A stretch of DNA of 64,000 nucleotides, taken from the NCBI GenBank assembly GCA_017458335.1, contig JAFTFT010000023.1, forward strand, positions 17,853-81,852. The letters run 5' to 3'. A program made the translations under genes and the position numbers. Origin of the DNA: Oscillospiraceae bacterium. GTDB lineage: Bacteria > Bacillota > Clostridia > Oscillospirales > Oscillospiraceae. Under the pieces are notes generated by a model. The model did not search any database. It saw only the letters and a program-made list of their open reading frames with translations, and was not told where the DNA came from. Positions within the stretch are counted from its first letter, which is position 1. Each line of letters opens with the position of its first letter. Positions 10,808-48,368 of the stretch are shown piece after piece.

Positions 10808-11590
10808 CTATCCCAGCGCCACATCCAAGGCCATCATCAGACTGAATCCGACGGCAAAGGCGATGACGCCGATATTGGAATGCTCTCCCGCTGACATCTC
10901 CGGAATCAGCTCCTCCACAACTACATAAAGCATGGCGCCGGCGGCGAAGGACAGCAGGTACGGCATGGCAGGCACGATCAGCCCTACCAGGGCTATCGTC
11001 ATGGCGCCGAACAGCGGTTCCACGGCGCCCGACAGGAGGCCCAGCCAGAAGGACCTGCTTCTGCTTTTTCCTTCCGCATACAGCGGCATGGAGATGATCG
11101 CGCCTTCCGGAAAGTTCTGGATCGCGATGCCGAGGGTCAGCGCCAGCGCCCCGCCCGCGCTGATCAGGCCGGAGCCGGAGAGAAGCCCTGCGTACACAAC
11201 GCCCACCGCCATCCCCTCCGGGATGTTGTGGAGGGTTACCGCCAGAACCATCATCGTGATCCGCGCCAGATGGTTTTTCGGGCCCTCTGTCTGGTTGGCC
11301 GCACGATGCAGATGCGGGATGATGTGGTCCAGCAGGAGCATGAAGGCAATTCCGGCCCAGAAGCCGAGAAACGCCGGGAGGAAAGCCAGCCGGCCTTTGG
11401 CGGCGGACTGATCAATGGCCGGAACGATCAGGCTCCAGATCGACGCCGCCACCATGACACCCGCTGCAAAGCCGTTCAGTGCCCGCTGAACGCCGCGCTT
11501 CAAATCCCTGCGAAGGAAAAAGACGCAGGCGGCCCCGGCTGTCGTGCCGATAAAAGGGATGAGTAGTCCCATCATGACTGTTTTGATCAT
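10808..11590 (-). CDS. ZIP-family metal transporter
   Basis: This 260-residue membrane protein has about eight hydrophobic segments. The ZIP metal-site helices IV and V are plain: HNIPEGMAVGVVYAG near residue 122 and NFPEGAIISMPL near 160. A histidine-containing loop (DHIIPHLHRAAN) lies before them. GufA/ZupT-like members import zinc, iron or manganese. The ATG has GAGAGG 8 bases upstream. It is a single-gene unit under a near-consensus promoter (11658-11686) with an 18-base perfect palindrome at the transcription start (11633-11650), which suggests control by a metalloregulator. Metal preference cannot be read from the sequence. Confidence 0.92.
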   Translation of the reverse strand: MIKTVMMGLLIPFIGTTAGAACVFFLRRDLKRGVQRALNGFAAGVMVAASIWSLIVPAIDQSAAKGRLAFLPAFLGFWAGIAFMLLLDHIIPHLHRAANQTEGPKNHLARITMMVLAVTLHNIPEGMAVGVVYAGLLSGSGLISAGGALALTLGIAIQNFPEGAIISMPLYAEGKSRSRSFWLGLLSGAVEPLFGAMTIALVGLIVPAMPYLLSFAAGAMLYVVVEELIPEMSAGEHSNIGVIAFAVGFSLMMALDVALG

Positions 11591-11632
11591 ACAGTTGTCC
11601 TCTCATTCATAAATTACAGGATGAGGCGAAGA

Positions 11633-11650
11633 AGTTAGATATATCTAACT
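11633..11650. promoter_or_regulatory. Palindromic operator of the ZIP transporter
   Basis: Perfect 18-base palindrome AGTTAGATATATCTAACT, starting 7 bases downstream of the -10 box and so covering the transcription start. The TTAG...CTAA arms resemble operators of DtxR/MntR-type metalloregulators; the regulator is not in the window. Confidence 0.7.
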
Positions 11651-11657
11651 GCCTGTC

Positions 11658-11686
11658 ATTATAGTCCTTTCCCGGAAGAAAAGCAA
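11658..11686 (-). promoter_or_regulatory. Promoter of the ZIP transporter
   Basis: Minus strand: TTGCTT (11681-11686), 17-base spacer, perfect TATAAT (11658-11663). Confidence 0.8.
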
Positions 11687-11735
11687 GAGGAAAATGTATC
11701 GCAGCCCTCGCAGATGCAGCCGGCGCCGGATGAAG

Positions 11736-11771
11736 CAGCCCGAAGTGAGCTTTCTTTCTCACTTCGGGCTG
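11736..11771 (-). terminator. Hairpin between OYE-type gene and ZIP promoter
   Basis: Perfect 14-base stem CAGCCCGAAGTGAG (11736-11749) with CTCACTTCGGGCTG (11758-11771). It follows the stop of the gene ending at 11808. The T-tract on the minus side is poor, so strength is uncertain. Confidence 0.6.
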
Positions 11772-35798: not shown

Positions 35799-36506
35799 TC
35801 AGCTTCTGCTGTCGATCCACTGCTGAAGGTCTGCTTCGGATACGCCGCCGCTGAATCGGGTCGAGGAGAGGAAGGTCCCTGTCCCGGCCTGCTCGCCCAG
35901 CGTTTCTCCGGTCCGCCCGGCTCCGCTGCCGCCGGAAGTGCAGAACGGGATTACCGTGATGCCGGTGAAGTCATGGCTTTCCACGAAGGTGCTCATGATG
36001 CGCGGCGCCTGTCCCCACCAGATGGGATAACCGAGATAGAGCGTGGTGCAGCCGTCCAGCGAAATCTCATTGGCGATCTCCGGGCGGGCGTCCGGCGTGT
36101 TTTGCTCCACCGTCGCGCGGGTGGTCCGATCGTTGTAATTCAGGTCCTCCGTCGTATAGGGCTGGGCCGGAACCAGATCAATCAGCTCCGCGCCGGTGAG
36201 TGCCGCGATTTTCTCCGCCACGCCGCGGGTGGTGCCGGTGCAGGAGAAGACAACCACGAGGCTCTTGTTTTCCTGTGCCGGGGCCGGCTCCGCTGCGGTC
36301 TCTTCCGCCTCGGCAGGCGCCGCATCTGCTGCTTCCTGTACCGGAGCCGGAGTCTCTTCCGGTGCCTGCCCGGGAGTTTGTTCGGGTGCCTGTTCGGGCG
36401 CTGCCGCGGGTGTCGAAGCGGGCTGTGCCTGTGTCGCGGTATTTCCGCATCCCACAGAGAATACTGCCAGCGCGAGCAACAGGCAGACGATCATCGCTTT
36501 TTTCAT
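35799..36506 (-). CDS. Flavodoxin-domain lipoprotein
   Basis: A 235-residue surface-anchored flavodoxin. Lipobox FSVGC with lipidated C20, then a ~60-residue Pro/Ala/Glu/Gln linker, then a flavodoxin fold with the FMN phosphate loop SCTGTTRGVAEKIA near residue 88 and the isoalloxazine loop YPIWWGQAP near 160. Flavodoxins are usually cytoplasmic electron carriers, so the lipid anchor and spacer show it works outside the membrane. Twelve bases downstream of the DUF362 gene. Likely partners are the DUF4405 membrane protein and the DUF362 lipoprotein of the same operon. Confidence 0.88.
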   Translation of the reverse strand: MKKAMIVCLLLALAVFSVGCGNTATQAQPASTPAAAPEQAPEQTPGQAPEETPAPVQEAADAAPAEAEETAAEPAPAQENKSLVVVFSCTGTTRGVAEKIAALTGAELIDLVPAQPYTTEDLNYNDRTTRATVEQNTPDARPEIANEISLDGCTTLYLGYPIWWGQAPRIMSTFVESHDFTGITVIPFCTSGGSGAGRTGETLGEQAGTGTFLSSTRFSGGVSEADLQQWIDSRS

Positions 36507-36517
36507 CTCTTTGCTCC

Positions 36518-37558
36518 TTATCTATGCCTGTTGCGACCCCAGAAGGTGTTGTAGCGGTCGGGCTGCCAGCCGGGTTTTACGTCCTTCACGGCCTCTGCCG
36601 CCGTGATGACGGCATCGCCGTTGTCGATGTCGATCAGGGTATACCGGTCATGTCCCATGCCGAGTTCTTTCATATAGCTGAGCTGGCGGAGTCCGTGACG
36701 GGATTCCACACGTTCAATCAGATCTTTTCCCGCTCCCTCCGGCAGATTGTAGATCAAATCCATGCAGGCATTGTCCACGGCCAGGATATCCAGCGAAGCC
36801 AGAATGCCGACGTCCGGCGTGACCACGGGTTCGGCATAGGCGCCCGCGCAGTCGCAGTCAATGGACATGTTGCGCATGGTATTGATGTAGCAGACATGAG
36901 GCGCGAAGTGATCAATGGTCGCCTTGGTGCTCTCGGAGATCCGCTCCATCAGCTCTTCCTCGGAAATGCTCCACATGTCACCGGCCGGCCGGGTATGGAT
37001 CTCCTTTTTGCCGACCCGTCCGTCCGCGCAGCCGATCCCGATGTTCTTGTTGGAGCCTCCGAAACCGCCCATCATGTGCCCCTTAAAATGGGTCAGCACC
37101 AGCAGGGAGTCATAGTTCAGCATGTTCTTTCCGACATGCATCTCCGTAAACCATTTGCCGCCCTTGACCGGCAGCGCGGCCACGCCGTCCGCGTCGGTGA
37201 TGTCCACCGGGCAGAAGGTCCAGCCGTTGATCGCCAGTGTTTTCCGGTGAGCCTCGGTGGTATAGCGGCTTCCCTCGTAATAGGTGTTGGTCTCGATGAT
37301 CGTCGCGTCAGGAAGACGCGTGTCGATCAGTTCCTTTACCCAGGGGCGCGGGATGATATTGGGGCCTTCGGCCTCTCCGGTGTGCAGCTTGATGGCCACC
37401 CTGCCGGTCAGGACGGAGGACACTCTGTCATAGACCTTCTTCAGTCCTTCCTCGGACAGATCACGGGTAAAAAATACCACGGAGTTCTCGCCCGTGCGCT
37501 CTTCAAAGGGAACATATCTGTTGCCGTCTTTTCCGGGAACCGGTTTGCTGTTGCTCAT
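36518..37558 (-). CDS. DUF362 protein, cytoplasmic
   Basis: A 346-residue DUF362 protein: VAIKLHTGEAEGPN near residue 55, the core LTHFKGHMMGGFGGSNKNIG near 155, CADGRVGKKE, and DCDC (Asp-Cys-Asp-Cys) near 240. It lacks both a signal peptide and a ferredoxin domain. Start: an upstream in-frame ATG (37660) gives a basic stretch lacking family similarity, while AAGGAG lies 9 bases before the ATG at 37558. Paralogue of the lipoprotein at 38932-40017 in the same operon. The biochemical role of this family is not established. Confidence 0.85.
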   Translation of the reverse strand: MSNSKPVPGKDGNRYVPFEERTGENSVVFFTRDLSEEGLKKVYDRVSSVLTGRVAIKLHTGEAEGPNIIPRPWVKELIDTRLPDATIIETNTYYEGSRYTTEAHRKTLAINGWTFCPVDITDADGVAALPVKGGKWFTEMHVGKNMLNYDSLLVLTHFKGHMMGGFGGSNKNIGIGCADGRVGKKEIHTRPAGDMWSISEEELMERISESTKATIDHFAPHVCYINTMRNMSIDCDCAGAYAEPVVTPDVGILASLDILAVDNACMDLIYNLPEGAGKDLIERVESRHGLRQLSYMKELGMGHDRYTLIDIDNGDAVITAAEAVKDVKPGWQPDRYNTFWGRNRHR

Positions 37559-37583
37559 TGTTTCTTCTCCTTTTCCTGTTTGC

Positions 37584-37913
37584 TCAGTCTTCGTTCCAGA
37601 TCTCCTTGGCCTGGCGGAAGACCGCCCAGCCCTTGGGCCAGCCGACGTACATGGTGGCATGGGTGATGATGGCGGCGATCTCTTCCCTGGTCACGCCGTT
37701 GTTCTTCGCGTTCTGCAGGTGATAGGCGAGGGACGAGTCCGTGATCCCCGAGGCCATCAGGGACACGACGGTGATGATGCACTTGGTCTTGACATCGATG
37801 GCTTCCTCGTTCCAGACTTCGCCGAACAGCACGTCGTCATTGAGGTGCGCGAACATCGGCGCAAACTCGCCGAGCTGATTCCGGCCGGCTGTCTGTGTGA
37901 TTTTCTTGCTCAT
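37584..37913 (-). CDS. Carboxymuconolactone decarboxylase-family protein
   Basis: A 109-residue CMD/AhpD-like protein: the helix VKTKCIITVVSLMASG with a cysteine at residue 45, and ITHATMYVGWPKGWAVF near the end. No second CxxC cysteine is present, so AhpD-type peroxidase activity is unlikely. Found in operon with the ABM monooxygenase; CMD proteins of this size often accompany redox or quinone-modifying enzymes. A ribosome-binding GGAG precedes the ATG. Exact reaction unknown. Confidence 0.85.
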   Translation of the reverse strand: MSKKITQTAGRNQLGEFAPMFAHLNDDVLFGEVWNEEAIDVKTKCIITVVSLMASGITDSSLAYHLQNAKNNGVTREEIAAIITHATMYVGWPKGWAVFRQAKEIWNED

Positions 37914-37925
37914 GTTGTTTCTCCT

Positions 37926-38255
37926 TCAGCGTTTGATAAACTTCAGATCTTTCTCCGGCAGACCGGCGTCGTCGGAGACAAAGCGTTCCACCTTCATATG
38001 CAGATCATACTTCTCCCGCAGCGCCGCGATCTGCCCCATCATGGGGGAAGCGTGGTGCGCGTCGATCGCCTTCTGATCCCGCCACTGGTCGATCAGCAGC
38101 ACGGTCTCGGGATCCTCCATCGGGAAGAAGTATTCATAGCGCAGATTGCCGTCCTCTGCGCGGATCGCCGAGACAACGCCGCTCCGGACCATCTCTTCCG
38201 CAAAAGCGCGGGCGCGGCCGTCTGTTCCGGTATAATAAAGATTCACGGTGATCAT
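37926..38255 (-). CDS. Antibiotic-biosynthesis (ABM) monooxygenase-like protein
   Basis: A 109-residue ferredoxin-like ABM fold: ITVNLYYTGTDGRARAFAEE, a mid-strand LRYEYFFPMEDPETVLLIDQW and HHASPMMGQI near residue 70. Relatives such as YgiN oxidise quinols; others bind heme or are only structural. The ATG overlaps the TetR stop by four bases. Presence with a flavodoxin and flavin reductase supports a quinone/redox role, by inference. Confidence 0.8.
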   Translation of the reverse strand: MITVNLYYTGTDGRARAFAEEMVRSGVVSAIRAEDGNLRYEYFFPMEDPETVLLIDQWRDQKAIDAHHASPMMGQIAALREKYDLHMKVERFVSDDAGLPEKDLKFIKR

Positions 38256-38881
38256 TGCAGTCCTCCCAGTAAGGTCCGGATAAAGTCACAGGCCATTTCA
38301 TAGGTACTCATGTAAACATAGGAAATTCCGGCCTCCTGCATGGCCTGCCGCTGCTTCTCCGTCACAACGGTGTAAGGATACAGGCCGTAGACGAAGGGCA
38401 GGAAAGCATAGAGAAAGGTCTGCCTGCTCTTTTCCCCCAGGGCAGGGACGAATTTCTGCAGGCAGCGGTCCAGCGCTTCCTTCGATTCGCCGTAGGCCGC
38501 CTTGAATTCCACCAGGCGCTCCATGCGGGAATTGGCTTCCATATCATAGAGATTCATGCTCAGAAGCTTGAGCATCAGGGGCCGCCGCTCCAGTGCACGG
38601 GCAAGCTCCGAAGAGAGTTCGTCAATTGACAGCGTCTCCCTGTGTTCGCACAGTCCGTCCAGATCTTTGGCAAACAGTTCATATTCCTGTGTAAACAGGG
38701 CAAGAAAGATTTCTTCCTTCGTCTCAAAATAATTGTAAATGGAAGTACGGGTGAAGGAGGTCTGCTGTCCGATCTCCTTGAGTGTGATGTCCTTGAAGCT
38801 CATGGTCTCATAGAGCTTCCGGCATGCGGAAATAATTTCCTCCTTCCGCGCTAAGGTCAGTTCCGGTGATCCTTTCGGCAT
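38252..38881 (-). CDS. TetR/AcrR-family repressor
   Basis: A 209-residue TetR-type regulator with an N-terminal helix-turn-helix (LKEIGQQTSFTRTSIYNYFETKEE, residues ~35-58) and a helical C-terminal ligand domain. It sits inside the redox operon. The operon promoter is covered by two TGACA-N3-TGTCA sites of the type such proteins bind, so autoregulation is likely. The stop overlaps the ABM start by four bases. Its inducer is unknown; quinones, flavin ligands or bile compounds would fit. Confidence 0.9.
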   Translation of the reverse strand: MPKGSPELTLARKEEIISACRKLYETMSFKDITLKEIGQQTSFTRTSIYNYFETKEEIFLALFTQEYELFAKDLDGLCEHRETLSIDELSSELARALERRPLMLKLLSMNLYDMEANSRMERLVEFKAAYGESKEALDRCLQKFVPALGEKSRQTFLYAFLPFVYGLYPYTVVTEKQRQAMQEAGISYVYMSTYEMACDFIRTLLGGLQ

Positions 38882-38931
38882 AAGGGATACTCCTCTCCAA
38901 CAAAATGGGCGGCGGTTTCCTCTGCGTTTTC

Positions 38932-40017
38932 TCAGCTGTCGAGGTTCTGCAGGGTATAGGTTCTGCTGCCGAGGCCGATCTGTTCGGCATACTGCAGCGT
39001 GTGCAGTCCGTCGCGGGATTCGATCCTGCGCACCAGGGATTCATTTCCTTCCGCCTGCCAGACAAGGTCAACGCAGGCCTGATCCAGCGCCACCGGGTCT
39101 GTGGACGCCAGGATGCCGATGTCATGGATATCCGGCTCAGCTGGATTTCCGTCACAGTCACAGTCCACGCTCAGACGGTTCATCACGTTGATATACACGA
39201 TATGCTCCGGCCCCACGTGATCACGTACGGCGGTGACCATCTCTGCCATGGCCTCCAGCCAGGCGTCCTGATCGCTGTGCATGATGCTGCCGCTCGTTCT
39301 GGTTCCGGCAGAATGGACATATACCTTGCCGCTGGGCGAGGACATGCCGATCCCCACATTCTTGATGGCCCCGCCGAAGCCGGCCATGGCGTGTTCCTTG
39401 AAATGCGAGAGAATCAGCCAGTCGCTGTAGTTCTCCGCATGGCTGCCGACGATGGCGTGTTCCAGGCGCGTCCCGCCGGTCACCGGCCACTGTACTTCCC
39501 CTTCCTCGTCCATCAGATCAAAGTCCGCAAAGGAGGTAAATCCGTGATCCGCCGCCACCTGCAGGTGCATGGCCGAGCTGCTGCGTGATCCGCCATAGGC
39601 GGTGTTGCACTCCACAATGGTACCGTTCAGGGACTGAACCAGGGGTCCGATGAGGTCGGCGCGGAGATAGTTGCTGGCGGGCGGCTCACCGGTGGAGACC
39701 TTGACGGCCAGCTTTCCCGAGGGGGTCCAGTTCAGGGCGCTGTATACCGCCTGCAGGCCCTCCGGCGAAATGTCCGAGGTGAAATAGACAAGCGGCGCGG
39801 CTTCCTCCGCCGGCGTGGCATCGGTTTTCGGTGCGGTAGTTTCCGCTGCCGCTGCTGCCGTGTCCGAATTCACAGGATCCTGTGTCACGGCGCTTTCCTG
39901 CGGTGCGGCACTTTCCGGGGCCGCACTTGCGGTCACGGGGTCCGCGCTCTTCCGCCCGCAGGCGGAAAGCGTAAGCACCAGAGCCGCGAGGAGGATCAGG
40001 GCTGTTATTTTTTTCAT
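38932..40017 (-). CDS. DUF362-domain lipoprotein
   Basis: A 361-residue lipoprotein: lipobox LSAC near residue 20, an Ala/Pro/Thr linker to ~75, then a DUF362 domain (LAVKVSTGEPPASNYLR; LSHFKEHAMAGFGGAIKNVG; SVDCDCDGN with DCDC). It is the surface counterpart of the cytoplasmic DUF362 protein at 36518-37558. No ferredoxin domain. Second gene of the TetR-controlled operon. The role of DUF362 is not established; the placement suggests an extracellular redox or ligand-binding task. Confidence 0.85.
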   Translation of the reverse strand: MKKITALILLAALVLTLSACGRKSADPVTASAAPESAAPQESAVTQDPVNSDTAAAAAETTAPKTDATPAEEAAPLVYFTSDISPEGLQAVYSALNWTPSGKLAVKVSTGEPPASNYLRADLIGPLVQSLNGTIVECNTAYGGSRSSSAMHLQVAADHGFTSFADFDLMDEEGEVQWPVTGGTRLEHAIVGSHAENYSDWLILSHFKEHAMAGFGGAIKNVGIGMSSPSGKVYVHSAGTRTSGSIMHSDQDAWLEAMAEMVTAVRDHVGPEHIVYINVMNRLSVDCDCDGNPAEPDIHDIGILASTDPVALDQACVDLVWQAEGNESLVRRIESRDGLHTLQYAEQIGLGSRTYTLQNLDS

Positions 40018-40043
40018 TTCTTCTCTCCGACACTTGCGTCCGT

Positions 40044-40583
40044 TCAGTTCATCTTCATGCAGGCGCCCAGGATGTCCCCGGTTTCCAGATATTCATAGGT
40101 CGGGAACTGGAACAGAGCAGGCTTGAACCTGCGATAATCGATCTTCCCTTTTTCCGTCAGAATGCTCTCGTCCACATAGGTTCCGGTAATCCGGCAGATG
40201 AAATTGTCAAAACCCTGGAGATCATAGATGTCCTCTACTTCGCATTCCATGGTCACTTTGGCCTCGTCGATCATCGGGGCGCCCTTCTCACCCAGCGTAT
40301 AGGCAAAGGCCTCAGATTTGTCCGTTTTGTTTCCGCTGATACAGCCCATGCGATCCGCGTCCTTCAGCCAGGAGGCATCCACCACATTGACCGAAACAAC
40401 CTTGTTCTCACGAATCCCCTTGTTGGTATAGTGAGCCTTTACCATGGAGAGCATCACATGGCTGTGTGCCATGACACCCGCATGCGCAACCAGCGTCCAG
40501 TTCGGCTTTCCTTCCACCATCGCACCGACCACGAGCACCGGTGCGGGATACAGCGCCAGCTGCGCTCCTGTATTCTTCTTCAT
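40044..40583 (-). CDS. Flavin reductase-like FMN-binding protein
   Basis: A 179-residue split-barrel flavoprotein: YPAPVLVVGAMVEGKPNWTL, HVMLSMVKAHYTNKGIRENK and a strand VTMECEVEDIYDLQGFDNF. Members bind FMN and reduce flavins or substrates. First gene of the redox operon. An ATG 18 bases upstream would begin inside the ribosome site (AGGAG); the ATG at 40583 has an 8-base spacer and is preferred. It may supply reduced flavin to the operon's other proteins. Confidence 0.85.
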   Translation of the reverse strand: MKKNTGAQLALYPAPVLVVGAMVEGKPNWTLVAHAGVMAHSHVMLSMVKAHYTNKGIRENKVVSVNVVDASWLKDADRMGCISGNKTDKSEAFAYTLGEKGAPMIDEAKVTMECEVEDIYDLQGFDNFICRITGTYVDESILTEKGKIDYRRFKPALFQFPTYEYLETGDILGACMKMN

Positions 40584-40615
40584 TTTGATGACTCCTTTCA
40601 CTCATGAATATATTA

Positions 40616-40815: not shown

Positions 40816-41529
40816 TCACTCATACCGCAGTGTCATCCGGAATACCGGCTTGCTGCTCTCGCCGGAGAGGAAGACCTCTCCGTCATCTCCGTTCCAGCGC
40901 AGGGTAAGTTCTTCTCCGAAGCGCGCCTCGTTGACATACTCCGTCCTGATCTCCTTCAGGAGCTTTCCCCCGGCCGCCGCACCGACGCAGTCCTCCGCCA
41001 GATCGAAGTACCGGGTGTTGTTCATATGCCCGTTCAGATCGACAAAACTGTAGGGAACCTCAAAGCGCTTTTCCCGATCACAGGCCAGCTTCCGGATCGG
41101 TCCGGGCAGGTCGATCTCCTTCCCGGTTTCCGTTCCTGCGATCTCGATGCCGTAGCGCTCCGGGAACACCGCCTTCCGGGATTTTTCATCCACCAGGCCC
41201 CAGTGGGCGCTTGCCTTCACAAGCGCTTCTCCCGCCTCCGTCTCCAGGCTGTAGAAGCGCGGGAACAGCAGGTGCATCGTCTTTCCCGGCCAGCTCCGAA
41301 GGACAATCTTCTCATCATATTCCGGCATGCGGACAATCTCCGCCCGCTGCATCAGCAGCACCCAGAGGATCCCCCTGTCCAGCGTCCTGTCGCGCCCCAT
41401 GCCGAGCTGTTCGGTGTGCCGGATGGAAGCTTCCTGCAGGAGCTTGAACAGCTCCGACGTACGCAGACGGCGGAACATGTCCACATCCCTGCTGCGCAGG
41501 GTCAGGCGCTCGGTGTAGATTTCGCTCAT
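40816..41529 (-). CDS. Acyl-ACP thioesterase-like protein
   Basis: A 237-residue double hot-dog protein of the FatA/acyl-ACP thioesterase type: RDVDMFRRLRTSELFKLLQE near residue 15, and VDLNGHMNNTRYFDLAED near 165, with catalytic-type N and H. Such enzymes release free fatty acid from acyl carrier protein. The ATG at 41529 overlaps the ACP stop by four bases (ATGA); an in-frame ATG at 41595 would lie inside the ACP gene and is rejected. It belongs to the ligase-ACP-thioesterase operon. Chain-length preference is not predictable. Confidence 0.85.
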   Translation of the reverse strand: MSEIYTERLTLRSRDVDMFRRLRTSELFKLLQEASIRHTEQLGMGRDRTLDRGILWVLLMQRAEIVRMPEYDEKIVLRSWPGKTMHLLFPRFYSLETEAGEALVKASAHWGLVDEKSRKAVFPERYGIEIAGTETGKEIDLPGPIRKLACDREKRFEVPYSFVDLNGHMNNTRYFDLAEDCVGAAAGGKLLKEIRTEYVNEARFGEELTLRWNGDDGEVFLSGESSKPVFRMTLRYE

Positions 41530-41780
41530 GCCTTGTTCGGCAGACGCTTGTAGATGGCATCCACCACATCGCCCAGCGTCTGCAGCTTTTTCCACTGCCG
41601 TTCCGGGATCTTCACGTCAAACAGCGCTTCCAGCTTGCAGATCACCAGCACAAATCCCATCGAGTCGATGGCGGTTTCCGTGTTGATGACGCTGTCCTCC
41701 TGAAGGCCTGCCTCCTCCATATCCGGAAAGCAGTCGAAAATGATTCTTTTGGTTTTCTCAAGTACGTCCTGTCTTGTCAT
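41526..41780 (-). CDS. Dedicated acyl carrier protein
   Basis: An 84-residue acidic carrier protein with the phosphopantetheine attachment motif AIDSMGF (Ser near residue 40) and a four-helix pattern. It is not in a fatty-acid synthesis operon but lies between an acyl-AMP ligase and a thioesterase, overlapping both by four bases. It therefore probably receives activated acyl groups from the ligase and gives them up to the thioesterase or a modifying enzyme. It needs a phosphopantetheinyl transferase, not seen here. Confidence 0.9.
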   Translation of the reverse strand: MTRQDVLEKTKRIIFDCFPDMEEAGLQEDSVINTETAIDSMGFVLVICKLEALFDVKIPERQWKKLQTLGDVVDAIYKRLPNKA

Positions 41781-43132
41781 GTCCTTGTTCCCACTTTCTG
41801 CTGGAGCTCCCAGCGCTTGATTTTGCCGCTGGCCGTTCTGGGCAGCGGATCCTCAGTAATTAGAATGTCGGTAAGCTGCTGACCGCGCGGCAGTTGTTCC
41901 ATCATCGGCCGCAGCTTCTGCCACAGCGTATTTCTGTCGCTGCTTTCTGTTTTTCCATTCTCCAGGACGAGAACCGGCCGGTCGTCACGAAGGACGACCG
42001 CAAGCTCTGTCGTCCCCAGGATTCTCATGAGTCCCGCTTCGTACTCCGGCAGGAAAATCTTTGTTCCGTCGCCCATGACGAGAATGTCCTTTTTCCGTCC
42101 CGTGATGTGCAGGCGGCCGTCCGCGTCAAAGTATCCCAGATCTCCCGTGGAGAGGATGCCGTGGCGCAGCACCTCTTCGGTATACTGCGGCCATTTGTAA
42201 TAGCCCTGCATCATGCAGGTGGGTGCCGCGATCAGGATCTCCCCGTCGTCGGCGATGGTGATCGTGTCGTCGGGGCAGACCTCCATAGCATAGGGGTCGC
42301 CGCCCACCGAGATCGCGACGCCCGAACTGGTCTCCGTCAGGCCGTAGCCGAAGCTCAGCCGGATTCCCCTCGCCTGGACTGCCTGCAGCAGCTGCGGCGG
42401 GCAGTCTCCCGCCCCCACCAGGATCAGGCGCAGCTCCTCGTTGAGGCAGTTCTGCTGCAGGAGAAAGCCCAGCAGCCGCGGCACCAGCGAGACCGCCGTC
42501 GGCCGGTAGAACTTCAGATCGTCGAGATAGTGCCTGGCCCCGCGGCCCAGCGCCACGGTCGCTCCGCAGCTCAGTCCCCACAGCAGCCCGCAGACAAATC
42601 CGAACACATGCCCCAGCGGCAGCATGCACATCAGGCAGTCCTCCGGCTGCAGCGGGAGCTTTTCCGAGCCGTTGAACGCGCTCTGGCAGAGGCTGGTATC
42701 CGTCAGGACCACCGCCTTGGCCCGTTCTGTTGTTCCGGAGGTGAAAAACAGGATCTTTCTGGCGCCGTCGGTGACGCCCTGGGTCAGATTCCCTTTCAGT
42801 TCCTCGCAGAGCTCCGGATCCCCCCACAGCAGATCGATATCGGTATAGGCGATCAGCCCGCGCAGCACCGCCTCCGGCGCCCCTTCATCCAGCAGCACCA
42901 GCTGGAGCCCCGCCATATTTGCCGCGAACAGTTCCACCACGCACTTGGGGCTGCCGTCCGAGAGCAGTCCCAGGCAGGTTTTCCCCGAGTTCTGAAGCTG
43001 TTTTGTCCGTTCCAGCACCCGGCGCTGAAGCTCCGCATAGCTGTAGCTCTCCCGCTCTCCGCGGAGCGCGATCCGGTCCGGGCTCTGTGTCGCCCAGTAG
43101 CCGAGCAAATCCGCAAAGCCGTAGAAGCGCAT
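41777..43132 (-). CDS. Acyl/aryl-AMP ligase loading the carrier protein
   Basis: A 451-residue ANL-family adenylating enzyme: phosphate loop FFTSGTTERAKAVVLTD near residue 128, YGLTETSSG near 260, GDLGYFDADGRLHITGRKKD near 320 and the catalytic lysine region PRTASGKIKRWEL at the C-terminus. All core motifs are present. It should activate a carboxylic acid as AMP ester and load it on the ACP encoded next. The gene is somewhat short for a full ligase, mostly in the N-terminal region. GGAGG 8 bases before ATG. First gene of the leftward operon, divergent from the isomerase operon. Confidence 0.88.
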   Translation of the reverse strand: MRFYGFADLLGYWATQSPDRIALRGERESYSYAELQRRVLERTKQLQNSGKTCLGLLSDGSPKCVVELFAANMAGLQLVLLDEGAPEAVLRGLIAYTDIDLLWGDPELCEELKGNLTQGVTDGARKILFFTSGTTERAKAVVLTDTSLCQSAFNGSEKLPLQPEDCLMCMLPLGHVFGFVCGLLWGLSCGATVALGRGARHYLDDLKFYRPTAVSLVPRLLGFLLQQNCLNEELRLILVGAGDCPPQLLQAVQARGIRLSFGYGLTETSSGVAISVGGDPYAMEVCPDDTITIADDGEILIAAPTCMMQGYYKWPQYTEEVLRHGILSTGDLGYFDADGRLHITGRKKDILVMGDGTKIFLPEYEAGLMRILGTTELAVVLRDDRPVLVLENGKTESSDRNTLWQKLRPMMEQLPRGQQLTDILITEDPLPRTASGKIKRWELQQKVGTRT

Positions 43133-43256
43133 GGAAAAAGCCTCCTTTCAGCTTTCTTCTGTCTTTTTCTGATTTTTATCATACCATAAGAAGCCAAAAT
43201 AAAAAAGAGATTTTGCAAATTTTACAAGAATTTTGACACAAGTTAAAAAGTATATA

Positions 43257-43285
43257 GTGAAATTGCCCTGAATCTGTTGTATAAT
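43257..43285 (+). promoter_or_regulatory. Promoter of the fatty-acid isomerase operon
   Basis: GTGAAA (43257-43262; 4 of 6 matches), 17-base spacer, perfect TATAAT (43280-43285), ~60 bases before the ATG. Confidence 0.6.
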
Positions 43286-43309
43286 TAACACATCTGAGCA
43301 AAAACGCGC

Positions 43310-43329
43310 ATTTGACCAAATTATCAAAT
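43310..43329. promoter_or_regulatory. Candidate operator upstream of the isomerase
   Basis: Inverted repeat ATTTGA (43310-43315) and TCAAAT (43324-43329), 8 bases apart, between the transcription start and the ribosome site. The arms recall fatty-acid regulator FabT sites, but the spacing differs; assignment is tentative. Confidence 0.35.
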
Positions 43330-43346
43330 TCATACGGAGGAAAACT

Positions 43347-44735
43347 ATGGACAAAAACATTCGCATCGCCATCATCGGCGGCGGCCCTGCCGGCCTGAGC
43401 GCGGGTATGTACCTGGAAAAGAAGGGTTATGAGAACTACACCATCTATGAGCGTCTCGACCGCGTCGGCGGCAAGTGCTGGTCTCCGCATTACAACGGAC
43501 GCCGCTATGAGATGGGCGCCATCATGGGTGTTCCGTCCTACTATGCAGTGCATGATGTGGAAGAGTTCTGCGGCATCACCCATGACGGCCCGCAGCTCAA
43601 CCGCAACTACAAGGACGGCTCCGGCAAGGTGATCGAGCCTTTCGCCCGCACCGTCGGAAACATCATCAAGAACCCCTGGCTTCTCAAGATGAAGAAGCAG
43701 CTCAAGACCTTCGGCGAATTGCTGGAGACCAAGTACAAGGGCTATGATCTCAACGGCCACCGCGGCGTCGCCGAGGGCCGCTACGACGGTTATGCCGTGA
43801 CGCCCGGCCGTGAAAAGGTCGAGGGCGTCAACCCGAATCTGAAAGACCTGGCCCTGCCCTTCAAGGAATTCTGTGAAAAGAACGGTGTTCCCCTGGTGCA
43901 GAAGATCTGGATCGGACCCTTCACTTCCTTTGGCTACGGCTACTTTGACGAGATCCCCGCCGCTTACGTTCTGAAGTATCTGGACTATCAGACCTGCATG
44001 AACTTCGTCAAGGTCAACCTCTGGACCTGGAAGAACGGCACCCAGTACATCTGGGAGCAGCTGAACGACCATCTGAAGCACCCCGCCGTGCTGAACAGCA
44101 TCATCGACAAGGTCGAGCGCAAAGACGGCAAGGTCTTCATCACCGTAAACGGCAAGGTTGAGGAGTTCGACAAGGTCATCGTTACCGCCCCGCTCTATAT
44201 CCCGAACAAGCGCGCCGACGGTCAGAAGGGCATGGTCGAGTACTTCGACGCCCGTGAAGACGAGAAGTCCCTCTTCTCCAAGATCGACTATGAGCGCTAT
44301 GACGTGCAGGCCTTCCTGACCAAGCCCGAAGATCACCCCGAGATCTCCTACTATGTCTTTGACAACATGGTTCCCGAGAAGCTCGGCCACCTGATGGTCT
44401 ATTATCGCCGCTGGAGAGACCAGATCGACCAGGTCATCACCACCTACGCACTGCGCAAGCATAAGAACTCCGCGGAGATCCCCTATGACACTTGCCGCCA
44501 GATGGTACAGGACGACCTCAAGATCATGGGCAACCCCGCCAAGGAAATCATCAACGAGTGGTCCGTGTACTACTTCCCCCATGTCTTTACCAAGGACTAT
44601 GCCGACGGCTGGTATGACAAGGTTGAGGCCATGCAGGGCAAGTACGACACCTTCTATGCCGGCGAGGTCATGAGCTTCGGCGACATGGACGAGACGGCCG
44701 AGTATTCCCGTGAGCTGGTGGATCGCTTCTTCTGA
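43347..44735 (+). CDS. Polyunsaturated fatty acid isomerase-like flavoprotein
   Basis: A 462-residue FAD protein closely resembling the linoleate (polyunsaturated fatty acid) isomerase of Cutibacterium acnes. Recognised blocks: FAD motif IGGGPAGLSAGMYLE at 10-24, GRRYEMGAIMGVPSY near 51-65, FGYGYFDEIPAAYVLKYLD near 195, GHLMVYYRRW near 350 and MQGKYDTFYAGEVMSFGD near 430. The characterised enzyme shifts double bonds of linoleic acid to conjugated products without net redox, using bound FAD. I recall these blocks from the known protein; no search was run. GGAGG lies 6 bases before the ATG. First gene of a three-gene operon. Substrate could be another polyunsaturated acid. Confidence 0.85.
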   Translation: MDKNIRIAIIGGGPAGLSAGMYLEKKGYENYTIYERLDRVGGKCWSPHYNGRRYEMGAIMGVPSYYAVHDVEEFCGITHDGPQLNRNYKDGSGKVIEPFARTVGNIIKNPWLLKMKKQLKTFGELLETKYKGYDLNGHRGVAEGRYDGYAVTPGREKVEGVNPNLKDLALPFKEFCEKNGVPLVQKIWIGPFTSFGYGYFDEIPAAYVLKYLDYQTCMNFVKVNLWTWKNGTQYIWEQLNDHLKHPAVLNSIIDKVERKDGKVFITVNGKVEEFDKVIVTAPLYIPNKRADGQKGMVEYFDAREDEKSLFSKIDYERYDVQAFLTKPEDHPEISYYVFDNMVPEKLGHLMVYYRRWRDQIDQVITTYALRKHKNSAEIPYDTCRQMVQDDLKIMGNPAKEIINEWSVYYFPHVFTKDYADGWYDKVEAMQGKYDTFYAGEVMSFGDMDETAEYSRELVDRFF

Positions 44736-44745
44736 TCCAACAATG

Positions 44746-44771
44746 CAGGGGCGGTCAGCTGACCGCCCCTG
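44746..44771 (+). other. Perfect intercistronic palindrome
   Basis: A 26-base perfect palindrome with arms CAGGGGCGGTCAG / CTGACCGCCCCTG directly after the isomerase stop, followed by TTTGATG. It could be a partial terminator or an RNA-stability hairpin that sets the isomerase level above that of downstream genes. Confidence 0.6.
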
Positions 44772-44807
44772 TTTGATGAAGTACCTGTAAGACGAAAGGA
44801 ACCGTAT

Positions 44808-46364
44808 ATGAAATTCTATAAAGACCATTACGACGTCGTGATCATCGGCGGCGCACTGGCCGGCATGTCCGCCTGTCTTCAGCTGCAGGCCTGGGGCATC
44901 AAGGACATCCTGATCCTTGAAAAGCACAACATGCCCGGCGGCCTCGCCACCGATTTTGTCCGCAACGGCTTTGAGATCGAAGCCACCCTGCATGAGATGA
45001 TGTCCATCGGCCGCCCGGGCAAGCGCCTGAAGGTCGGCCAGTTCTTTGAAGACATGGGGGTGGATGTGGACTGGCTCCCGGTCAACGAGTGCTATCGCGT
45101 CGCCCTGCCGAATTCGGGCATTGACAAGATTCTTCACCACGATTATGACGACAGTTACACCACCGTCGCCAGAGAGATCGACGAGGTCTGCCCCGGCACC
45201 TATGACAAGGTTCATGAGCTCATGCTCCTCTGCCGCCGGGTCTATGACAGCATGAACATCCTCTCCGTCACCCCGATGAGCAAGGTCCAGATGCTTCTCA
45301 AGCACCCCGACTTTGTCAAGACCGTGGGCTACACCGCCACGGAAGTCATCAACACCTTCGATCTGCCGAAAAAGGCCGTCGAGATGCTGACCCCGTACTG
45401 GATCTACGTCGGCAACCGCATGGACGATCTGCCCTTTACCATCTATGCCTTCCTCATGGCCGACTACTTCACCGGCAGCTATGTCTGCCGCGGCTTCAGC
45501 CATGAGATGAGCATGAAGCTCCAGGCCAAGTGCGAGGAGCAGGGCGCGCAGTATGAGTTCAACCAGGAAGTCGAGAAGATTCTGGTCCGTGACGGCAAGG
45601 TCTACGGCGTCCGCACCGCCCGCGGCGACGAGATCCACTGCGACTATGTCATCTCCGGCCCCTATCCCAACCGGGTCTACTCCCAGATGATCGAGCCGCT
45701 CACCGAGGTTCCGGCCGGCGCCATCCGGATGATCAACAACCGCAAGCTCTCCGTGACCCCGGTCTCCGTCATCATGGTGATCGAGGGCACCCCGGAGGAG
45801 AACGGCATCATCAACTACTCCACCTTCTCCGGCACCACCATGGACACCAACAAGATCTGGGAGAACTATTCCAACATCACCGAGCCCTACAACTACATCA
45901 CTACCATCTGCCTCAACTACGCCAATCCCACACTTCCCGAGGGCTATACCCAGCTCTCCATCACCGCGCTGGTCCCCTCCAAGCCCTTTGAAAACATCAA
46001 GGAAGAGGACTACTTCGACCTCAAGCGCCGTCTGGCCAGCGAGATGATCGACGAGTGCATCAAGATCACCAAGGTCGATTTCCGGAAGCGCATCACCGAG
46101 ATCGAGGTCACCACACCGATGACCGTCGCCCATTATGTGGGCGCCTGGAAGGGCAACATCTACGGCTATCTCCATTCCATGGAAGACCACGCCGTGGCCC
46201 GTCTCCAGATGAAGGAGAAGGATCACTTCATCGAGGGTCTGGAATTTGCCGGTGCGCATGGCATGAGCGGCGACGGCATGGGTCCGCAGATCACCAACGG
46301 ACGCGCCGCGGCCAAGGCCGTACGCGAGGATCTTGAGAAAAAGAAGGAGGCCGCGAAGAAATGA
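44808..46364 (+). CDS. Phytoene-desaturase/saturase-like FAD oxidoreductase
   Basis: A 518-residue flavoprotein of the CrtI/retinol-saturase type: FAD motif VVIIGGALAGMSACLQLQ near residue 10, ADR-loop GGLATDFVRNGFEIEA near 42 and a C-terminal FAD contact region (GDGMGPQITNGRAAAKAV). The family moves hydrogen across C=C bonds of lipids in either direction. Downstream it overlaps the reductase gene by four bases, so the two probably form an electron-transfer pair. In this setting it is a good candidate for a fatty-acid double-bond reductase or desaturase; that is inference. AAAGGAA precedes the ATG. Confidence 0.85.
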   Translation: MKFYKDHYDVVIIGGALAGMSACLQLQAWGIKDILILEKHNMPGGLATDFVRNGFEIEATLHEMMSIGRPGKRLKVGQFFEDMGVDVDWLPVNECYRVALPNSGIDKILHHDYDDSYTTVAREIDEVCPGTYDKVHELMLLCRRVYDSMNILSVTPMSKVQMLLKHPDFVKTVGYTATEVINTFDLPKKAVEMLTPYWIYVGNRMDDLPFTIYAFLMADYFTGSYVCRGFSHEMSMKLQAKCEEQGAQYEFNQEVEKILVRDGKVYGVRTARGDEIHCDYVISGPYPNRVYSQMIEPLTEVPAGAIRMINNRKLSVTPVSVIMVIEGTPEENGIINYSTFSGTTMDTNKIWENYSNITEPYNYITTICLNYANPTLPEGYTQLSITALVPSKPFENIKEEDYFDLKRRLASEMIDECIKITKVDFRKRITEIEVTTPMTVAHYVGAWKGNIYGYLHSMEDHAVARLQMKEKDHFIEGLEFAGAHGMSGDGMGPQITNGRAAAKAVREDLEKKKEAAKK

Positions 46365-47551
46365 GCATCAAGGTAAAAGGATTTCTGCAGGACGTCGGCG
46401 GGGCCTCCCGCGTCACCAGGCTGAGAGAAGAGAATTTTGCCAAAGGTTCCACGATCATCGACCCGCGGGATCCGATTCGTGAGCTGGCGGACAAACTGCA
46501 TCCCGAGCATATGACCTTCAAGGTCGTCGACATCCGCGAGGCCTCCCCCACTTCCCGCGTGTTCCGCTTCGAGTCGGCGGACGGACATATCCCCGTGTTC
46601 CAGAGCGGCCAGTATGTCAACTTCCGCCTGAAGATCGGCGAGAGCGTTCTCTCCCGTCCCTATACCATTTCCTCCGCTCCCTATGAGGCACGGGGCGAGC
46701 ATCCCTTCTTCGAGATCACGGTTCGCCGCAACGTCCCCTATCTCGTTCCGGACTACCTCTTCGAGAACGTCAAGGTCGGCGATGAGCTTCAGGGCGCCCT
46801 GCCCTTCGGTTTCTTCTACTGGGAGCCTCTGCGTGACAGCAGAGAGATCGTCGCGCTGGCCGGCGGCAGCGGCATCACCCCCTTCCACTCCATGGCCAAG
46901 GAGATCCTGAACGGCAAGATGAAGGGCTGCAAGCTCACCATCCTCTATGGTTCCGTCAAGGCCAACGACATTGTCCTGAAGGACGAGCTCGATGCCATCG
47001 AGAAGGCCTGCCCGGACGTGAAGGTCGTCCACGTGCTCTCCGATGAGCCTGACTGGCAGGGCGAGAAGGGCTTCATCACCCGCGAGATCATTGAGAAGTA
47101 TTCCACCCCCGACTGCACCTATATGTTCTGCGGGCCGCTGCCCATGTTCCGCTTTGTGAAGAAGGCGCTGGATGAGATGGGTGTCGGTCCCCGCCGCTTC
47201 CGCCACGATGTGGTGAATAACCCCGCCGACGTCTCCACCCTGCCCGGTTATCCGAAGGGCACCGAGACCAAAACCTTCAAGATCACGGTTCTGCGCGGCA
47301 TCCACGAGGATGTCATCGACGCCGCGGCCTCCGAGCCGGTCGCCGTCGCGCTGGAGCGTGCCGGAATCGCCATCGACACCCACTGCCGCAACGGCGAATG
47401 CGGCTTCTGCCGCAGCCACCTGCTGGAGGGTGAGATCTTTGTCTCCCCCATCGGCGACGGACGCCGCCGCATGGATAAGGAGATGGGCTGGTTCCATGCC
47501 TGCTCCTCCTGGCCGCTGACCGATCTGAAGATCAAGATCCCCATCATGTGA
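46361..47551 (+). CDS. NAD(P)H oxidoreductase with FAD and 2Fe-2S domains
   Basis: A 396-residue electron-transfer reductase: a short lead region, FAD domain (RPYTISSAPYEARG near residue 105), NAD domain (ALAGGSGITPFHSMAKE near 165; YMFCGPLPM near 260) and a C-terminal plant-type 2Fe-2S ferredoxin (HCRNGECGFCRSHL and FHACSSWP near 345-390). It is built to take electrons from NAD(P)H and deliver them by the 2Fe-2S centre, very probably to the flavoprotein encoded just upstream (four-base overlap). A strong terminator follows. All cofactor motifs look intact. Confidence 0.92.
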   Translation: MSIKVKGFLQDVGGASRVTRLREENFAKGSTIIDPRDPIRELADKLHPEHMTFKVVDIREASPTSRVFRFESADGHIPVFQSGQYVNFRLKIGESVLSRPYTISSAPYEARGEHPFFEITVRRNVPYLVPDYLFENVKVGDELQGALPFGFFYWEPLRDSREIVALAGGSGITPFHSMAKEILNGKMKGCKLTILYGSVKANDIVLKDELDAIEKACPDVKVVHVLSDEPDWQGEKGFITREIIEKYSTPDCTYMFCGPLPMFRFVKKALDEMGVGPRRFRHDVVNNPADVSTLPGYPKGTETKTFKITVLRGIHEDVIDAAASEPVAVALERAGIAIDTHCRNGECGFCRSHLLEGEIFVSPIGDGRRRMDKEMGWFHACSSWPLTDLKIKIPIM

Positions 47552-47621: not shown

Positions 47622-48368
47622 TCATTTGTTGGAGTCTCTGGTCCAGAGCAGATCTCCCATATGGCTTCTGTAATCAATATGGATATTGTCGACCGTCGTT
47701 CCGGCATATGCCGCGTACATCCGGCCGAACTCATAGATCTTTTCCGTAGCGCCGCGCTCTGCCGCGCTCTCGTTGAGCGACGTGCAGACCGCCGTGAACA
47801 CGGTGCAGTCCTCGTTGACGGTGTATTCGTCCACGTTCGGATAGTTCACATCCGAAGCCATGGCGTTCAGCTGGTCCTGAATATAAGCGCGGACCGCATC
47901 GAGATCGCCCGGATCGATCCCCGGAATTACATACTGCTCCGGAATGGGCTTCGGCGTCGGGGCAGGTGTCGGCGTCAGGACAGGTGTCGGAGGTGTCGTG
48001 ATCACCGTTTCAGTCGTATCGCCGTCTGACGCGGCCTCTCCGGGCTGAGTCTGGTCTGCGTTGGAAGTGTCTGCTCCTGCCGAACCGTTCGTCCCGGCTG
48101 AGGATCCGGAGGATGTTCCCATCGTCGGCTCCGGCGTCACCGTCGAGGTGGTCTCGATCTTCGGAGACTGCTGTCCCAGCACATAGCGTACAACAAAGAA
48201 GCCCGCCGCCAGAAGCGCAGCAACGATGAGAATAATGAGCAGCACTTTCAGAACCGTGCCGGCCTTCCTTGACCTTCCGTCTTCTTCCTCGTCATCGAAC
48301 TCGATCTCAACCAGAGGCAAGTCCTCATCGTCCAGATCAAGATCGTCAAAATCGCTGTATCTACTCAT
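47622..48368 (-). CDS. Single-pass membrane protein, extracellular domain unknown
   Basis: A 248-residue protein: a strongly acidic cytoplasmic N-terminus (DDLDLDDEDLPLVEIEFDDEE), one membrane helix (~40-65), a Ser/Thr/Pro linker (~70-140; TPPTPVLTPTPAPTPKPIP), and a small extracellular C-terminal domain of about 100 residues with two cysteines. The domain is not recognised. GGAG lies 9 bases before the ATG at 48368; an upstream ATG at 48428 lacks one. Single gene facing the VanW operon. Function unknown. Confidence 0.65.
   Translation of the reverse strand: MSRYSDFDDLDLDDEDLPLVEIEFDDEEEDGRSRKAGTVLKVLLIILIVAALLAAGFFVVRYVLGQQSPKIETTSTVTPEPTMGTSSGSSAGTNGSAGADTSNADQTQPGEAASDGDTTETVITTPPTPVLTPTPAPTPKPIPEQYVIPGIDPGDLDAVRAYIQDQLNAMASDVNYPNVDEYTVNEDCTVFTAVCTSLNESAAERGATEKIYEFGRMYAAYAGTTVDNIHIDYRSHMGDLLWTRDSNK

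Follow-up and report, generated by a model that had tools for sequence, protein, structure and literature searches.

A divergent cluster of six genes, found in a 64,000-nt stretch of contig JAFTFT010000023.1 from an Oscillospiraceae bacterium (this whole stretch is referred to as the window), combines a homologue of a polyunsaturated fatty acid (PUFA) isomerase with two redox proteins and with an acyl ligase, an acyl carrier protein (ACP), and a thioesterase. The conserved module is real, and we hold with moderate confidence that it is a horizontally spread biohydrogenation module for dietary C18 PUFAs in anaerobic, mainly ruminant-gut bacteria. From the observed gene set, homologies, conserved catalytic residues, and co-inheritance we infer the activities, the forms of the substrates, the isomer produced, and the order of steps as follows. 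The isomerase homologue would use FAD chemistry to move a double bond in free linoleic or linolenic acid, giving a conjugated acid, for which the trans-10,cis-12 product is a first guess by analogy with Cutibacterium acnes. The ligase would activate the acid with ATP and then load it on the dedicated ACP; a CrtI-like flavoprotein, reduced by an NAD(P)H:FAD:2Fe-2S protein, would reduce one of the conjugated double bonds to yield a trans-monoene; and the acyl-ACP thioesterase would free the product as a free acid. The cell would thereby be rid of toxic PUFAs and gain a sink for NAD(P)H.

The rightward operon (plus strand) comprises the genes for the FAD-dependent PAI-type isomerase homologue (PAI, 43347..44735), the CrtI/CrtISO-like flavoprotein proposed to be a conjugated-diene reductase (CRT, 44808..46364), and an NAD(P)H reductase with an FAD domain and a C-terminal 2Fe-2S domain (FDR, 46361..47551); PAI and CRT are spaced by 72 bases, and CRT and FDR overlap by 4 bases. 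The leftward operon (minus strand) encodes the acyl-adenylate-forming ligase (AAL, 41777..43132), the dedicated ACP (41526..41780), and the FatA/FatB-type acyl-ACP thioesterase (TE, 40816..41529, with its ATG at 41529), joined by ATGA overlaps of 4 bases each at the ligase/ACP and ACP/thioesterase junctions. Reading of the sequence confirmed the six genes, their order and coordinates as originally predicted, and agreed exactly with the predicted leftward overlaps and the 214-base divergent region between the operons (43133..43346). The enzyme classes were likewise upheld at the class level by Pfam and NCBIfam, the latter giving class-level matches for all proteins but the thioesterase, for which there was no match. 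Since none of the NCBIfam models listed for the six proteins (25 of the 93 matching families in the case of the ligase) attains its curated cut-off and the ACP falls just under the Pfam cut-off, all six appear to be divergent members of their families.

Conservation of the cluster was assessed in the best 80 of 319 PAI relatives, ranked by similarity to the window isomerase in a scan of genome contigs. All six genes, with the leftward trio and the rightward trio on opposite strands, were found by tblastn in 62 of the 80 loci, a recurrence of genes and strands by which a chance neighbourhood was rejected. Sequence reaches at least 2.9 kb to the left and at least 3.3 kb to the right of the isomerase in 56 loci, 55 of which hold all six genes; the 18 loci outside the complete set comprise 17 with too little sequence beside the isomerase and one (L098) with the ligase elsewhere in the genome. 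The gap between isomerase and ligase, as judged by alignments, is approximately 94-338 bases in 73 of the 76 loci with a ligase match. Eight of ten carrier genomes checked for the ligase were positive.

At the level of whole genomes, a full PAI relative was found in 17 of 300 genomes of the same family, 15 of them at 79-100% identity and two at 52-55%; the raw total of 254 also takes in short nucleotide-binding matches. The ligase (E <= 1e-60) is present in all 15 genomes with a close PAI and in 1 of the 285 others (Fisher p 2e-24, the PAI and ligase draws being treated as the same 300 genomes according to their matching handles); in the latter genome (G276) it is close to one end of a 4.7-kb contig. 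A second set of 35 genomes with PAI (22 of 140 and 11 of 250 sampled genomes, together with the two genomes of the window's family that have a distant PAI) has the ligase (E <= 1e-40) in 9 of 10 genomes with PAI of at least 66% identity and in 1 of 25 with PAI of 45-60%, the exceptions being G355, where the ligase is missing and the isomerase lies on a 3.4-kb contig, and G441, where a distant PAI is accompanied by the ligase. The idea that every PAI relative carries the set was rejected on the remaining 24 of these 25 genomes. On these counts the two operons do co-occur in related genomes, a point on which the original prediction had staked itself, and their functional coupling is supported by both sequence and inheritance. 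The co-occurrence of ligase and PAI across the 35 genomes is the strongest evidence suggesting that all six genes serve one pathway.

The best solved relative of the window isomerase is the trans-10,cis-12-conjugated linoleic acid (CLA) former of C. acnes, 2b9w (E 5e-132, 444 bits). An AlphaFold model based on 27 window and locus sequences (mean predicted local distance difference test, pLDDT, 88.0) superposes on 2b9w with template modelling (TM) scores of 0.88/0.96 and 48% identity in the structural alignment, and thus both sequence and the FAD amine-oxidase fold identify the protein as PAI-type, a homologue of the Cutibacterium linoleate isomerase as had been predicted. The window class is nearer to 2b9w than are two distant-PAI proteins from other loci, which score 382 and 400 bits. 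Window residues R86 and F220 align with R88 and F193 of 2b9w, which we take to hold the substrate's carboxylate group in C. acnes PAI. Arginine and phenylalanine occupy these positions in 83/83 close sequences (the window and one duplicate record, L159, from the same contig as L104, included) and in 8/9 distant ones. Since this pair is conserved and the C. acnes enzyme, according to the available parts of PMC2885616, converts free linoleic acid, isomerisation of the free acid, with loading on the ACP later or in parallel, would be the simpler reading and is at least as likely as loading first; the predicted order of loading on the ACP followed by isomerisation gains no support over the reverse. 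Unlike the window protein, which is accompanied by a reductase pair and by ligase, ACP, and thioesterase, the C. acnes enzyme is presented as a stand-alone enzyme in those portions of the literature that were available.

Both flavoproteins, PAI and CRT, contain the Pfam Amino_oxidase domain. CRT resembles the CrtI/CrtISO flavoproteins in fold (model pLDDT 89.4, TM 0.78/0.82 to the carotenoid desaturase 4rep) and probably in acting on a long hydrophobic substrate of the polyene type. It differs from them in scoring 99.2 bits against TIGR02734 (CrtI/phytoene desaturase), under the curated cut-off of 238.1, and in being paired with its own 2Fe-2S reductase. The latter protein combines FAD_binding_6 (PF00970), NAD_binding_1 (PF00175), and Fer2 (PF00111) domains; its nearest solved structure is the benzoate dioxygenase reductase 1krh (E 5e-26), and it scores 132 bits against a cut-off of 430 for the BenC-type family NF040810. 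Its Fer2 domain is C-terminal (residues 319-383), yet aligns with residues 21-94 of 1krh, and at least 97% of 79 sequences retain the 2Fe-2S motif CR.G.CG.CR. The identities of CRT and FDR to their window counterparts co-vary across loci (r = 0.99), and at a 75% identity cut-off the two agree in 66/67 loci, in keeping with a dedicated NAD(P)H:2Fe-2S partner for CRT. Between the two fates originally offered for the acyl chain, saturation or desaturation, reduction is to be preferred and desaturation appears less likely, because a fixed NAD(P)H-dependent partner in an anaerobe would deliver electrons to CRT.

An alternative use of the pair, which we regard as quite unlikely, would be a module for PUFA detoxification by isomerisation only, in which CRT and FDR would form a redox-cycled cis-trans isomerase and the ligase, ACP, and thioesterase would merely hold the acid; the products would be trans or conjugated dienes, with no saturation. 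Carotenoid isomerase CrtISO requires its FAD to be reduced but brings about no net reduction, and the second-best NCBIfam match of CRT is the carotenoid isomerase family TIGR02730, at 81 bits, far below its cut-off of 587. The tight co-inheritance of the NAD(P)H:2Fe-2S protein with CRT, however, fits a stoichiometric supply of electrons, and an isomerase is already present in the form of PAI.

Among the products of the leftward operon, the thioesterase scores 65.8 bits against PF01643 (Acyl-ACP_TE; cut-off 23.7) and 35 bits against PF20791, its nearest solved relative is the putative oleoyl-ACP thioesterase 2own (E 5e-12), and at least 97% of 75 aligned sequences, the window included, retain its motif D.NGH.NN. 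The same conservation holds for the Asp-Ser attachment site of the ACP and for the ligase motifs LFFTSGTT, GYGLTETSSG, GRKK, and LPRT..GK. The ACP scores 20.3 bits against PF00550 (PP-binding; cut-off 20.8) and 45 bits against NF002150 (cut-off 66). A genome-wide PP-binding search did not list it, and elsewhere in the window genome there are a separate match of 63 bits in an 88-aa frame on contig C26 and two matches of 32-34 bits within frames of approximately 1000 aa, so the cluster ACP looks divergent and dedicated. The ligase is an AMP-binding enzyme (PF00501, 139 bits) that scores 72.4 bits against the fatty acyl-AMP ligase family NF006624 (cut-off 600), and its gene linkage suggests that it loads the ACP rather than CoA. 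Following isomerisation of the free acid, the ACP would most simply be used for reduction, release, or both.

The gene order varies among loci, and the six-gene set is retained (REARRANGEMENT). Two loci (L179 and L181) have the collinear order AAL-ACP-TE-PAI-CRT-FDR on a single strand, and a third (L173, re-read by tblastn) has PAI-CRT-FDR-AAL-ACP-TE, also on a single strand; in L172 the divergent six are kept despite identities of 67% for PAI and 40% for the ligase. The two halves of the cluster are on different contigs in G109, as are the isomerase and ligase matches in G264 and G972, and the halves lie approximately 7 kb apart in L061. Such separation, together with the invariance of the presumed carboxylate-holding pair in the close isomerases, would suit an exogenous fatty-acid salvage or membrane-tuning shunt formed by ligase, ACP, and thioesterase, which would only be co-regulated with a free-acid PAI-CRT-FDR path having no enzyme step on acyl-ACP. 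We consider this arrangement unlikely, as the halves co-occur almost perfectly, form a single run in three genomes, and include a thioesterase that would undo the salvage. In L179 (1198-4017) and L181 (10946-13765) a seventh gene, for a 939-aa protein, follows the collinear run; the L181 protein is an iron-sulphur (Fe-S)/FAD GltD-like protein by Pfam.

The tested genes that flank the cluster in the window (flavin reductase, TetR, DUF362-like, the protein at 47622, VanW-like, and hot-dog) are each present in at most 2 of the 80 loci (in many, under 10 kb of flanking sequence is available) and do not travel with the cluster. Loading of an ACP by a ligase is common in secondary metabolism, and the module could in principle be a small biosynthetic cluster that places on the ACP a conjugated acyl group destined for a larger lipid or signal molecule. 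This possibility is highly improbable given the scarcity of these neighbours, the absence, by Pfam, of condensing and transfer enzymes from the conserved six, and a thioesterase that ends the path as a free acid.

Returning to the proposed biohydrogenation module, its distribution suggests mobility. The 80 records were assigned to Oscillospiraceae (42), Lachnospiraceae (3), Anaerovoracaceae (1), other Clostridia (29), other Bacillota (2), and Coriobacteriia (3). The three coriobacterial records (PAI identities of 87, 83, and 83%) form one group beside clostridial ones in a quick tree (SH-aLRT support 90) from which the duplicate record L159 was left out. Among 15 genomes of the same family as L159, its right flank gene has matches of 41-50% in seven and of 31-36% in the other eight; with matches of 32-35% in five clostridial genomes, this gene only leans coriobacterial; the left flank gene is uninformative. 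Transfer of the cluster between phyla is therefore likely, resting on contigs of metagenome-assembled genomes (MAGs). The CRT type (at least 75% versus less than 75% identity to the window CRT) changes at least 5 times on the PAI tree (71 rows, many forks weak), which indicates that the isomerase and the reductase pair have probably been exchanged. Carriage on known plasmids was rejected, the best matches in 72,556 plasmid records being only 28% (PAI) and 26% (CRT). In a phylum-wide sample 1 of 398 genomes was positive, namely the window genome itself. With respect to habitat, 28 of the 80 record titles mention a ruminant host or organ, 42 contain RUG/RUI codes, which we take to denote rumen projects, and 10 have neither, so that 70/80 point to ruminants.

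Several observations weigh against the proposed module. The ruminant share is a raw count of records with no habitat control for collection bias, and most carriers are MAGs by title, the window genome itself being 83.7% complete and 4.06% contaminated. The ligase was not found in the genomes of L081 and L090, where 118 and 167 bases, respectively, separate the isomerase from the end of its contig; its matches are partial in G302, G972, and G951 and contain a stop in G290, G1080, and G885. The nearest solved relatives of the ligase are CoA ligases, and it could itself be CoA-forming; a free-acid isomerase would have no evident need of an ACP. The score of CRT below the curated crtI cut-off weakens the case for its proposed substrate and reaction direction. 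Moreover, six of the 285 family genomes without a close PAI have CRT orthologues (68-74%), and FDR follows CRT in all five of these loci that were readable (L123, L124, L126, L127, and L128), which argues that the pair has uses without PAI; in L124 it lies near a gene for a CoA-transferase III, with genes resembling those of short-chain dehydrogenases/reductases (by eye). Finally, in the accessible parts of PMC9853040, the trans-10 shift is accompanied by a rise of Olsenella/Atopobiaceae and Lachnospiraceae and by a tendency of Oscillospiraceae to fall (4.56 to 1.69, P 0.074), which argues against the latter family driving the shift. Given these trends, it may be the distant PAI class, and not the six-gene module, to which the trans-10 link belongs.

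Rumen biohydrogenation governs the amounts of PUFA, CLA, and trans fat that pass into milk and meat, and a compact, conserved six-gene module in uncultured rumen lineages provides named genes for expression, assay, and metatranscriptome tracking. As a tentative extension, the cluster may represent carrier-protein-dependent rumen biohydrogenation with an isomerase, a candidate conjugated-acid reductase of the CrtI class, a cycle of loading and release on acyl-ACP, passage between Clostridia and Coriobacteriia, and a trans-10 branch tied to milk fat depression. A linoleate isomerase and a CLA reductase of Butyrivibrio fibrisolvens were reportedly described by Hughes in 1982 and Fukuda in 2007, as told in citing papers. 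This system, compared here by description only and through partial accounts, is alike in its proposed isomerisation followed by NAD(P)H-dependent reduction of a conjugated diene. In the consulted portions of PMC4478896, NADH oxidation and rumenate reduction in Butyrivibrio stand at 1:1, and the reductase is given as absent from KEGG, COG, and Pfam as of 2015; excerpts of two further papers call the bacteria forming trans-10 intermediates unclear (PMC7339423) and the main biohydrogenating species still unknown (PMC6037716). The cla system of Lactiplantibacillus plantarum (CLA-HY, CLA-DH, CLA-DC, plus CLA-ER) is also a multi-enzyme route from linoleic acid to CLA, but it uses, as far as the available text goes, an oleate hydratase, a short-chain dehydrogenase, and an acetoacetate decarboxylase rather than flavoproteins of the PAI and CrtI types (PMC9241672, PMC13365329). 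None of the six window genes received a Pfam name of the CLA-HY, DH, DC, or ER type, the genome not having been searched for those genes. The enzymes are of known kinds and their combination is new: the original prediction knew of no characterised system with all six parts, and no description of the set was found in the full-text literature, a search with most subscription journals outside it.

In the divergent region, a promoter-like element TATAGTG-N20-TATAAT is located upstream of the isomerase (43253..43285, plus strand). The pattern T[AT]TAGTG-N13-23-TATAAT, picked after inspection of the regions in which it was counted, is present in 20 of 73 homologous divergent regions and in none of 50 single-base shuffles of the set; a shared operator was sought across the same 73 regions, and nothing beyond this element emerged. 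To the left of the cluster (35799-40586, minus strand), another redox cluster contains TetR and flavin reductase genes by Pfam, along with genes presumably encoding a flavodoxin-like protein and two related DUF362-like proteins; three of these neighbours were tested, and each occurs in at most 1 of the 80 related loci.

Further CRT-FDR pairs and PAI relatives were observed in other contexts. In L123 a GntR regulator with FCD/FadR_C domains (11066-11743) adjoins a stand-alone CRT-FDR pair with no PAI, hinting at control linked to fatty acids. The CRT frame of L128 (6776-8596; G298, no close PAI) is interrupted by stops, as in a decaying copy or an assembly error. Contig C39 of the window genome (L114, 4397-13024) contains two further, more distant CRT-FDR pairs (CRT 31-32%, FDR 39-41%), between which lie genes for an 888-aa Fe-S/FAD GltD-like protein (Pfam) and a HypA-like protein (by eye). 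Fourteen distant-PAI neighbourhoods were read. A 927-966-aa protein that looks like an Fe-S/FAD GltD-like protein lies beside or near PAI in eight of them (L132, L133, L154, L157, L160, L175, L176, and L178), five of which also have HypA-like and some HypB-like genes, with Pfam names checked in L133 only. The stretches taken from the other six (L152, L153, L156, L158, L174, and L177) did not include this protein, L174 ending at a contig end. The ligase was absent from all eight genomes with a distant PAI and the GltD-like protein in the search at E <= 1e-40, and the two proteins perhaps constitute a second PAI system. Finally, on plasmid pDA100 of Photobacterium sp. DA100, a marine gammaproteobacterium, CRT-like (22%) and PAI-like (29%) genes overlap on one strand (L171, 5319-8167), at a position where the plasmid record has no annotation.

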